From: Chloroflexota bacterium
GTDB taxonomy: Bacteria; Chloroflexota; UBA6077; JACCZL01
NCBI GenBank assembly: GCA_030447245.1
Contig: JAUJPG010000005.1
Coordinates: forward strand, 90,049 to 154,048
DNA: 64,000 nucleotides
Direction: 5' to 3'
The notes under the pieces are model-generated. The model saw only the letters and a program-made list of their open reading frames with translations, was not told where the DNA came from and made no database searches. The translations under genes and the position numbers were made by a program. Below, piece after piece: positions 18,316-22,606 of this stretch; the stretch's first letter is position 1, and every line of letters begins with the position of its first letter.

Positions 18316-19143
18316 TCAGTGGGTCGGCAACGGGGAGGATGGTCTGGTCGCGGCCTTGAGCTCCCGCACAAAGTCGGCGACTGTGGGCAGTAGCTCACGC
18401 GCGTCGGTACGCTCTATCAGGTCGGCAAGCGCGCTGGCGACGATCGCGCCATCCGCGTGTCCGACCAGCGCGGCGACGTGGCCCGGCGTTGAGATTCCGA
18501 AGCCGACGACGAGCGGCGTCTGGATCGCGCGCCGCGCGGCGGCGAGGAACCGGGGCAGCTCGGGGGCGAGAGCAGGCCGCGCCCCAGTCGTGCCGACGAG
18601 CGCGACGCAGTACACGAAGCCGCTCGCGCGGGCGCCGATTGCAGTCAGCCGCTCTGCGCCCGTTGTCGGCGCCACCATCCGGATCAAGTGAACCCCGGCC
18701 GCCGTGCACGCTCGCTCGAAAGGCATTGACTCCTCGAACGGGAGGTCCGGAACGATGATCCCGTCCACGCCGGCGGCCGCGGCATCCTGGGCCAGTCGTT
18801 GGAGTCCGTGGGCGAAGAGCGGATTCAGGTAGCTCATCAGCACGATCGGCAGCGCGTGACGTTCGCGGACGCTCGCCGCCAGCTCAAACGCATCCGCTAG
18901 CACAACACCCTGCCCGAGGGCGTGCGCGTTGGCGCGCTGGAGGGTAGCCCCATCCGCCAGCGGGTCCGAGAACGGTAGGCCCAGCTCCAGGCCATCGGCG
19001 CCGGACAGGGCCATGGTGTCCAGCAAATCTCGGCAGGTAGCGCGATCCGGGAAGCCGGCCGTCAGGTACGGGAACAGGCCAACCTCGTCAGCGCTCCGCA
19101 AGCGAGTGAACGTCGCTGCCAGCCGATCCGGCCGGTCACTCAT
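18316..19143 (-). CDS. trpA: Tryptophan synthase alpha chain
   Basis: [47 protein letters not shown]. Confidence 0.96.
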
Positions 19144-20387
19144 TGCTCGTCGCCGGTCGCCTCGCGATATGTTGCGAGATCCTTGTCGCCCCTCCCCGAG
19201 AGGTTGACCACGACCAGCGCCCCGGGTCCGAGGCGCGTCGCCAGCTTCGGCAGATAGGCCAGGGCATGGGCCGGCTCGAGTGCCGGGATGATGCCCTCGA
19301 GCCGCGAAAGCTGCCGGAACGCCGCGAGCGCAGCCTCGTCGTCCACCGCCACGTACTCCGCGCGGCCGCTGCCCTTCAGGTGGCTGTGCTCCGGACCGAC
19401 ACCGGGGTAGTCCAAGCCGGCCGAGACGCTGTGAGTTCCGACGATCTGGCCGTGCTTATCCTGGAGCACGAACGAGCGCGCGCCGTGCAGCACTCCAACC
19501 TGCCCGGCAACGAGGGTCGCCGCGTGCTCGCCCGTCCCGCGCCCGCGCCCGCCGGCCTCGATGCCCACGAGGCGCACCGACGCGTCGTCCACAAATGGAG
19601 CGAAGATGCCGATGGCGTTGCTGCCACCGCCGACGCACGCGACCACCGCCTCAGGCAGACGGCCCGTCTCGTCGAGCAGCTGGCTGCGCGCCTCGCGACC
19701 AATTACCGCCTGAAAGTCGCGCACTAGCGTCGGATACGGGTGCGGGCCAACGGCCGAGCCCAGGACGTAGAACGTCGTCCGTGGGCTCGTCACCCAGTCT
19801 CGCATCGCCTCGTTGATCGCGTCCTTGAGCGTCCGTGTCCCGGAGTCCACGATCCTGACCTCGGCACCGAGCAGCCGCATCCGCTCAACGTTGAGCGCTT
19901 GGCGAAGCACGTCGTCCGCGCCCATGTAGACGACGCACTCCAGGCCAAGCATCGCGCAGGCCGTCGCGGTCGCCACGCCGTGCTGGCCAGCGCCGGTCTC
20001 GGCGATGACTCGCCGCTTGCCCATCCGCGCGGCCAACATCGCCTGTCCGAGGGCATTGTTAATCTTGTGCGCGCCAGTATGAGCCAGGTCCTCCCGCTTC
20101 AGAAAGACGCGCAGCCCGAGCGCATCGGACAGTCGGAGCGCCTCGTAAAGCGGCGTCGGTCGGCCACTGAACGACCGCGCCAGGCGGGCATACTCTGCCT
20201 GGAACTTGGCGTCCATCTGAGCGGCAGAGTAGCCGACTTCAAGCTCCTGGAGGGCCGGCATCAGCACCTCGGGCACGAATTGGCCCCCGAACTCGCCAAA
20301 GTAACCAGGCCGTGCCGTCGCCTCGCCGACCGGCACGTCAGGCCCGGTGTCGGTCAGTGCGCCAGCCGCCTTGAACGCGCCCGTCAC
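19140..20387 (-). CDS. trpB: Tryptophan synthase beta chain
   Basis: [69 protein letters not shown]. Confidence 0.97.
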
Positions 20388-21196
20388 GCGCTCGCCCCCG
20401 CACCAACCGGTGACGCCAGGCGCCCGGCCTCGACCAGCTCGGCCAGGCGCACGGCCGGATCAGCGGCCGTGACCAGCGCCTCGCCCACGAGGACCGCATC
20501 GACGCCGAGTCTCCGCAGGCGGTACACGTCCTCCGCGGTCCTGACACCGCTCTCGCCGACGACCGTCACCCCCGCCGGGACGAGCGGTCGGAGCCGTGCG
20601 GTGGTCTCCAGGTCAACCGTCATCCGGGTCAGATCGCGGTTGTTGATTCCGACTGTCCGGGATCCCATCTCGAGCGCAACCGCCAGCTCACCTTGGGTGT
20701 GGACCTCGACCAGCGCGGTCATTCCGAGCGACTCGGTCAGCGCGGCAAACTCTCGGAGTTCTGTTGGCCTCAACGCGCGCACGATGAGCAGCACCGCGTC
20801 TGCCCCGAGCGCGCGCGCCTCGTAAATCTGGTAAGGATCGACGACGAACTCCTTGCAGAGCACCGGCACTTCAACGCTTCGCTTGACGCTTGCCAGGTCG
20901 CGCCCAGAGCCACCGAAGTAGCGCGCATCGGTCAGCACCGAAATCGCTGCCGCTCCAGCGGCCGCATATCCTTCGGCGACGTCAGCGGCGTCGAGGCTCG
21001 CCCGTAGAGTGCCCCGGGACGGCGACGCACGCTTGATCTCCGCGATCACTGCCAGGTTCCGACCAGCCAGCGCCGCTCGGAAGTCCAGCGCGGGTGGCGC
21101 CGACGCCGCCCGCCGAGCCACGGCGCCCAGTGGCTCGCGTTCCGCGCGGGCGGCCAACTCCACCGCCTTGTGGGCCAGAATCTCGTCGAGGATCAT
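20384..21196 (-). CDS. trpC: Indole-3-glycerol phosphate synthase
   Basis: [65 protein letters not shown] at 21196 overlaps the trpD stop. Confidence 0.95.
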
Positions 21197-22227
21197 CACG
21201 CCACGAGCGTCCGCCGCAGCTCGCCGCACTGGGCCCGTACCTGGTCGAGCTTGTGCCGCGCCGCTCCCGAGTCGACGACCTCCGCGGCGATCCGCACGCC
21301 ATCGGATAGGCTGCCGACCATACCCGCGACGAGCAACCCCGCCGCCGCGTTGAGCAGGACCACGTCCCTAGGCGGCCCACCCTCGCCGGCGAGCACCGAG
21401 CGTGCGATCCGGACGTTCGCCTCGACGGTACCACCCCGAACGGCCTCGCCCGGGGCACGCGGCAAGCCGACGTCCTCGGGAACGAGCTCGTACTCGGGAA
21501 TCTGCCCGTCGACGAGCTCGTTGACTCGGGTCGGTGCGGAGATCGACAACTCGTCCAGCCCGTCGCGCCCGTGGACCACCAGCGCCCGACGCGTGCCGAG
21601 CAGCCGCAACACTTCGGCAATCGTGGGCACCAACGCATCGTCGGCCACGCCGGTGACCTGGGCCGTGGCCCCGGCGGGATTGGTCAGAGGACCCAGGACG
21701 TTGAACACCGTCCGCACGCCGATCTCGCGCCGCGGACCGGCCGCGTGCTTCATGGCGGGATGGTAGAGCGGGGCGAACATGAAGCCGAAGCCAGTCTCCC
21801 GCACCGACCTGGCGACGCCTTCGGGCGGCAGGTCGATCGCCACGCCGAGCGCCTCGAGGATGTCAGCACTGCCACACGTGCTGGTTACCCCGCGATTGCC
21901 ATGCTTGGCGACCCGCCCGCCAGCGGCCGCTACGACCAATGACGAGACGGTCGAGATGTTGAAGGTACGAGCCCCATCGCCCCCGGTCCCGACTACGTCG
22001 ATGACGTCGTCGCCGGCGTCGACCCGGGTCGCGTAGCGGCGCATGATCCGAGCGAGGCCGGCGATCTCGTCCGCACTCTCGCCCTTCATCCGCAACCCGA
22101 CTACGAAGGCGGCGATCTGGGGCGCGGTGGCCACCCCCTCGACGATGTCGACCATCGCGGCGGACGCCTCCGCCTCCTCCAGTGATCTGCCTTCGACCAC
22201 CTTGCCGGTCATTTCCTTGATTGCCAT
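21196..22227 (-). CDS. trpD: Anthranilate phosphoribosyltransferase
   Basis: DVVGTGGDGARTFNISTVSSLVVAAAGGRVAKHGNRGVTSTCGSADILEALGV; ATG at 22227 preceded by AAGGAGAG. Confidence 0.96.
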   Translation of the reverse strand: MAIKEMTGKVVEGRSLEEAEASAAMVDIVEGVATAPQIAAFVVGLRMKGESADEIAGLARIMRRYATRVDAGDDVIDVVGTGGDGARTFNISTVSSLVVAAAGGRVAKHGNRGVTSTCGSADILEALGVAIDLPPEGVARSVRETGFGFMFAPLYHPAMKHAAGPRREIGVRTVFNVLGPLTNPAGATAQVTGVADDALVPTIAEVLRLLGTRRALVVHGRDGLDELSISAPTRVNELVDGQIPEYELVPEDVGLPRAPGEAVRGGTVEANVRIARSVLAGEGGPPRDVVLLNAAAGLLVAGMVGSLSDGVRIAAEVVDSGAARHKLDQVRAQCGELRRTLVA

Positions 22228-22263: not shown

Positions 22264-22297
22264 AAAACGCCTCTCGTCCACGCAGGGGCGAGAGGCG
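22264..22297 (-). terminator. Intrinsic terminator of the T-box leader
   Basis: CGCCTCTCG-12 nt loop-CGAGAGGCG followed by TTTT on the minus strand (perfect 9-bp stem). Confidence 0.88.
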
Positions 22298-22571
22298 CGC
22301 TCGCGGTGCCACCCTGATTCGGCCGCCCAACCTCACGGCGGGCCGCCATCTTCGCGGGCACGGCCACCTCGTACAATGGCGATGCCCTACACCTTGATAA
22401 CGGTGGTAGCTCCGGCGAAGCCTACTGGGCGGTCCAGAAACCGCCGTTCGGTTCGCGACTCCCGGGTCCATTCACGGGGCTTCCCAGCGCCGGCTCACAC
22501 CTTGCCCGGCTCTCTGAGCTGTTCCACCCTGCTACTCGTCCCGTTCACAGTCTTTGGGTATTCGGTTGATG
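22264..22571 (-). promoter_or_regulatory. T-box riboswitch (tRNA-Trp sensing) in trpDCBA leader
   Basis: Minus strand: Stem I elements (CUCAGAGAGCCGG...GGUGUGAGCCGG), specifier GUGAA-UGG-ACCCGGGAGUC (UGG 22468-22470), stem II-like ACCACCGUUAUC, T-box AGGGUGGCACCGCG (22302-22315), then terminator. Confidence 0.93.
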
Positions 22572-22577
22572 GTCGGG

Positions 22578-22606
22578 AGTATAGTCAGGCCTGGGAACGC
22601 TGTCAA
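22578..22606 (-). promoter_or_regulatory. Sigma70-type promoter for the trp T-box operon
   Basis: Minus strand TTGACA (22601-22606)-N17-TATACT (22578-22583). Confidence 0.88.

Follow-up and report, generated by a model that had tools for sequence, protein, structure and literature searches.

A predicted tRNA-Trp-specific transcriptional T-box riboswitch upstream of a reduced trpDCBA operon in a Chloroflexota bacterium

Trp T-boxes have been reported in the Chloroflexi before: Wels et al. (2008) described them upstream of trpE and of a trpB-like gene in Dehalococcoides (PMC2494555), and a 2013 survey lists T-boxes in the Chloroflexi (PMC3766115). Translational T-boxes of high-GC bacteria have been described for actinobacterial ileS (PMC1262725), and in the rhizobial trpL-trpE(G) system a fused trpE(G) is under the control of a leader-peptide attenuator (PMC7298713). 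A first-pass annotation of the window, that is, of the whole 64,000-nucleotide stretch analysed here, had singled out the use of a T-box at the trp locus of this lineage as the point to verify. We confirm this use, but it is not new, since the Dehalococcoides Trp T-boxes are already published; what is new is the operon context, with trpE(G) unlinked and preceded by another kind of predicted sensor.

The leader preceding trpDCBA is, with a probability that we put at roughly 0.95, a transcriptional T-box riboswitch specific for tRNA-Trp and controlling these four genes (Table 1), which upholds the central proposal of the first-pass annotation. This reading is supported because: (i), the leader matches the T-box family RF00230 over its full length; (ii), the downstream genes are identified as trpD, C, B and A; (iii), a UGG specifier and a terminator are found in 20 of 20 trp leaders compared; (iv), the leader structure covaries; and (v), the tRNA-Trp of the genome fits the leader. 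Three observations speak against it: the RF00230 score lies under the curated cut-off, the tract of four U is short and the terminator helix covaries weakly.

Table 1. Positions of the genes and RNA elements discussed in the text (window coordinates unless a locus is named).
Feature	Position	Strand	Basis or remark
trpD, anthranilate phosphoribosyltransferase	21196..22227	-	TIGR01245 408.5 bits; PF00591, PF02885
trpC, indole-3-glycerol phosphate synthase	20384..21229	-	PF00218; NF001377 above its cut-off
trpB, tryptophan synthase beta	19140..20387	-	TIGR00263 606 bits
trpA, tryptophan synthase alpha	18316..19143	-	TIGR00262 239 bits
Promoter-like site TTGACA-17-TATACT	22578..22606	-	11/12 consensus positions (sigma-70-like)
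Stem I: K-turn/GA region, AGUA, distal T-loop elements AGAGA...GGUG..AGCC	22458..22551	-	RF00230 alignment
Specifier loop GAA-UGG-A	22473-22467	-	Read from sequence
Specifier codon UGG (Trp)	22470-22468	-	UGG in 20/20 trp leaders of the class; complements tRNA-Trp CCA anticodon
Stem II with S-turn motif GAA...AGUA	22416..22455	-	RF00230 alignment
Stem IIA/B pseudoknot region (CCGG...CCACCGUUA)	22396..22414	-	RF00230 alignment
Stem III GGGCAUCGCCA...UGGCCGUGCCC	22356..22387	-	Assignment made here, departing from the Rfam alignment
T-box AGGGUGGCACCGCG, bulge UGGC facing tRNA 3' GCCA	22302..22315	-	Sequence and RF00230 alignment
Antiterminator: AGGG+GCGAG (22315-22312, 22304-22300) with CUCGC+CCCU (22292-22284)	22284..22315	-	Helices 10-11
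Intrinsic terminator, arms CGCCUCUCG (22297-22289) and CGAGAGGCG (22276-22268)	22264..22297	-	9 bp; sequence and fold
Terminator U tract UUUU	22267-22264	-	Followed by GG
Trp-rich leader ORF and terminator before trpE(G)	G000:C86, L094 about 808-655	-	Sequence and fold
UGG T-boxes ahead of a fused trpE(G), another Chloroflexota family	L214 3395-3637 (-); L215 1107-1275; L216 1194-1435		

A covariance-model scan of a 521-base stretch under an E-value threshold, as had been suggested for this leader, returned a significant match to RF00230 (22557-22281, minus strand, model positions 1-219 of 219, 80.7 bits, E 5.8e-18), which kept an E of 1.4e-17 in a scan of the whole genome (5.2 Mb). The score nevertheless falls short of the curated gathering cut-off of 93 bits, and a standard Rfam scan of the window at that cut-off did not list the T-box. 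Since the full-length match appears under an E-value threshold, this silence is no evidence against a T-box; the low score likely comes from the GC-rich stems together with a long insertion that separates stem II from the T-box. Weak matches to microRNAs and lncRNAs in the Rfam scans were treated as chance and these identities were rejected. Folding energy alone was uninformative (minimum free energy z of -0.48). RF00230 finds three T-boxes in this genome, the trp leader among them, and matches in 77 of 81 sampled genomes of relatives, in 45 of them above the cut-off. The other two T-boxes precede two separate acetolactate-synthase genes (L001 and L002), each with its own specifier that reads as CUC (Leu). 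At L001 (about 1880-1935), 3' of the full Leu T-box, there is another T-box core, GGGUGGUACCGCGAG, which has a terminator-like hairpin and a T run of its own; it escaped RF00230 and is possibly a truncated tandem T-box.

The leader was compared with 19 T-box leaders taken from trp loci within its class (56-71% identical to it), giving 20 leaders in all; the best named relative, the Chloroflexi metagenome-assembled genome MGR_bin229, carries a TrpD 75% identical to that of the window. The UGG specifier and the T-box core are kept in 20/20 of these orthologous leaders, the window included; in G002 a C stands after the specifier where the others have a purine, and GGGUGGCACC is invariant throughout. 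On the alignment, 92.6% of cells are paired in the T-box structure; shuffles give 79.8%, and sliding the partners leaves 36-44%. Two-sided changes affect 29/46 pairs, against 18.4 in shuffles (0/500 shuffles as high), and 139 cells, against 49.3; the tested structure was partly drawn from one of the aligned leaders, which favours the pairing figure but hardly the count of compensatory changes. The covariation that was to be looked for in related genomes is thus present, and it is seen in Stem I (helices 1-5, in 20 sequences), Stem II (helix 6, 92.5% of cells paired, two-sided changes in 4/6 pairs), Stem III (helix 8, 90% and 6/7 pairs) and the antiterminator (helices 10-11, 97-100%, with compensatory changes). 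The Rfam alignment of Stem III is poor in the window and was replaced by the covarying GGGCAUCGCCA/UGGCCGUGCCC pairing. The CCGUUA of the Stem IIA/B region is nearly invariant.

At its 3' end, the leader carries the features of a transcriptional switch. The 5' arm of the terminator and the 3' arm of the antiterminator have positions 22292-22289 in common, and because these four bases are shared only one of the two hairpins can form. A hairpin followed by a U run and overlapping the antiterminator occurs in 19/19 relatives, the U run being short in a few and that of the window shorter than most. For the terminator helix the alignment gives 83% pairing with weak covariation, in part owing to unequal hairpin lengths; individual folds are the better evidence. 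A generic terminator scan missed the window hairpin because it demands 5 T in 8 bases, but the fold does show it. The specifier, the T-box and the 9-bp terminator with its UUUU had all been correctly located on the minus strand by the first-pass annotation, which was also right to place the terminator just upstream of trpD; the spacing from the last U to the trpD ATG (22227-22225) is 36 nt, not 37. Its view that the terminator is notable for a high-GC T-box is not supported here, every trp T-box examined in the class having one. As judged from these predicted terminators, the transcriptional mode is the rule among trp T-boxes of this lineage, and the expectation raised by the translational T-boxes of Actinobacteria does not carry over to the class of the window.

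A pattern search and ARAGORN found a single tRNA-Trp in the genome (anticodon CCA, end ...CGCGCGU-G-CCA), which is fully complementary to the leader, through its CCA to the UGG specifier and through its GCCA-3', discriminator G included, to the UGGC bulge. A promoter-like site precedes the leader (1 such site found versus 0.2 expected in shuffles), and similar -35/-10 pairs lie upstream of most of the 19 related leaders. RNA polymerase would start near 22571 and transcribe the leader, where an uncharged tRNA-Trp would pair by its anticodon with the UGG of Stem I and by its free 3' end with the bulge of the T-box. The antiterminator held in this way would block the 9-bp terminator and let transcription proceed into trpDCBA, whereas the 3' end of a charged tRNA-Trp would be unable to pair, so that the terminator would form and transcription would end before trpD. 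Binding of the tRNA, the response to its charging and antitermination are inferred from how T-boxes are known to work. Altogether, the leader may be regarded as a well-supported yet ordinary RNA switch, whose proposed mechanism comparison supports well.

It could be argued that the T-box is translational instead, tRNA binding freeing a sequestered Shine-Dalgarno sequence with no antitermination involved, as known for ileS in high-GC Actinobacteria (PMC1262725) and as the short tract of four U might suggest. However, AAGGAGAG (about 22242-22235), which resembles a Shine-Dalgarno sequence, belongs to neither the terminator nor the antiterminator, the fold of the window leader leaves it unpaired and contains no hairpin that would sequester it, and a terminator with a U run recurs in 19/19 relatives; we therefore consider this mode very improbable. 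That the leader is a degenerate, non-functional remnant, left behind when the operon lost trpS, trpE, trpG and trpF, is less probable still: the loss of four genes, the RF00230 score under the cut-off and an A-C mismatch in Stem I would fit, but all core elements are intact, compensatory changes keep the pairs and, even where the T-box of the window has a G for the A of its relatives, the GCGAG/CUCGC pairing of the antiterminator is preserved.

The predicted Trp T-box stands at an operon that has apparently been remodelled. The trp genes mapped at 20 related loci usually follow the order T-box-(trpS)-trpE-trpG-trpD-trpC-trpF-trpB-trpA, and only T-box-trpD-trpC-trpB-trpA is found in the window, trpS, trpE, trpG and trpF being absent from the operon. 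The T-box appears to have been inherited from the longer operon, since reduced to trpDCBA. The trpS of this genome lies apart, on contig C71, and a search for a T-box before the unlinked trpS or trpE(G) found none. No trpF (PF00697) was found in the genome, although trpA-D are present; as the assembly is 90% complete, the gene is either in the absent part or replaced otherwise. A replacement of the PriA type was considered and rejected, the HisA reaching only 151.7 bits on TIGR01919 (cut-off 306) and fitting a plain HisA. In another genome of the class (G017; L191 2932-1874, minus strand), a T-box directly precedes trpD and no trpE was detected.

Less expected, and moderately interesting, is the position of the first pathway gene, which lies apart from trpDCBA at a locus where another kind of Trp sensor is predicted. 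The only trpE-type match in this genome (G000) is a fused TrpE(G) on contig C86 (TIGR01815, 1128 bits); matches to this family occur in every genome and reflect general TrpE/PabB homology, 12 of 301 passing its cut-off. Contamination is unlikely, because the GC content of the stretch (0.66-0.70) agrees with that of the window (0.68) and because a fragment in G002, a genome of the same family, is 79% identical to it. A short ORF precedes the gene (GTG GAA CGT CCC TGG ACT CGG CGT CGG TGG TGG TGG CCG CGG TAG, MERPWTRRRWWWPR-stop), with GGGAG five bases upstream of its GTG and, downstream, a 16-pair hairpin followed by UUCUUUCU, which makes a strong terminator. The upstream region folds with a z of -3.9 and gave no match in an Rfam search; a WWW ORF arose in 0/300 resampled sequences, a resampling that held dinucleotide frequencies on average only. 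Of the 12 fused trpE(G) above the family cut-off, six have a WW or WWW ORF upstream (G000, G007, G020, G026, G040 and G008), ending in WWWPR-stop in G000 and in WWWPPR-stop in G020 and G040; in the alignment of these ORFs the G008 row is out of register, a TGGTGG upstream of its leader ORF having been chosen. The leader of G000 is predicted to be a ribosome-dependent Trp attenuator, in which the ORF would be translated and transcription attenuated. In G109, G179 and G284, the fused gene is preceded by a UGG T-box (E 2.5e-7 to 3.5e-5), and in G172 a T-box core is seen by eye at a locus interrupted by a contig end.

A T-box trp operon was counted in 21 genomes. Of these, four have a fused trpE(G) (G000, G002, G007 and G008) and four an operon without trpE (G000, G002, G007 and G017); three are common to both sets (hypergeometric P (>=3) about 0.012, calculated by hand with the relatedness of the genomes ignored). 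Since the fused gene is preceded either by a predicted attenuator or by a UGG T-box, the sensors seem to have been exchanged in evolution. We find it likely that the trp pathway is split here between two RNA sensors, a T-box reading uncharged tRNA-Trp for trpDCBA and a leader-peptide attenuator reading ribosome stalling at Trp codons for trpE(G), that such sensors were exchanged during the evolution of the Chloroflexota (the attenuator in 6 genomes, the UGG T-box in at least 3 and probably 4), and that the gain of trpE(G) goes with the loss of trpE-trpG from the T-box operon. We found no description of such an arrangement in Chloroflexi in the open-licence papers that our search covered.

The T-box of the window is one more example from an under-studied phylum, and its detection illustrates that the curated Rfam cut-off overlooks GC-rich T-boxes, as the counts in relatives given above indicate. 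If the split is true, direct tRNA sensing would share one pathway with ribosome-mediated attenuation, which makes the genome a natural case. The replacement of sensors before homologous genes would allow comparison and reporters to test how regulatory RNAs are exchanged while operons are remodelled.

Compared with the described systems, the leader shares phylum, amino acid and pathway with the Dehalococcoides Trp T-boxes (PMC2494555), but trpD is its first gene and trpS, trpE, trpG and trpF are gone from the operon. Stem I, the UGG specifier, stem II, IIA/B, stem III, the T-box and the terminator all have their counterparts in the T-box leader family RF00230, of which the trp operon of Lactococcus lactis is an example (cited in PMC2494555) and from which the window leader differs by its GC-rich stems, its long stem III region and its score below the curated cut-off. 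Finally, the predicted trpE(G) attenuator resembles the rhizobial trpL-trpE(G) (PMC7298713) in that a short ORF carrying tandem Trp codons, together with a terminator, comes before a fused TrpE(G); here, however, the system is predicted from sequence, belongs to the Chloroflexota and is accompanied by a T-box in charge of the rest of the pathway.
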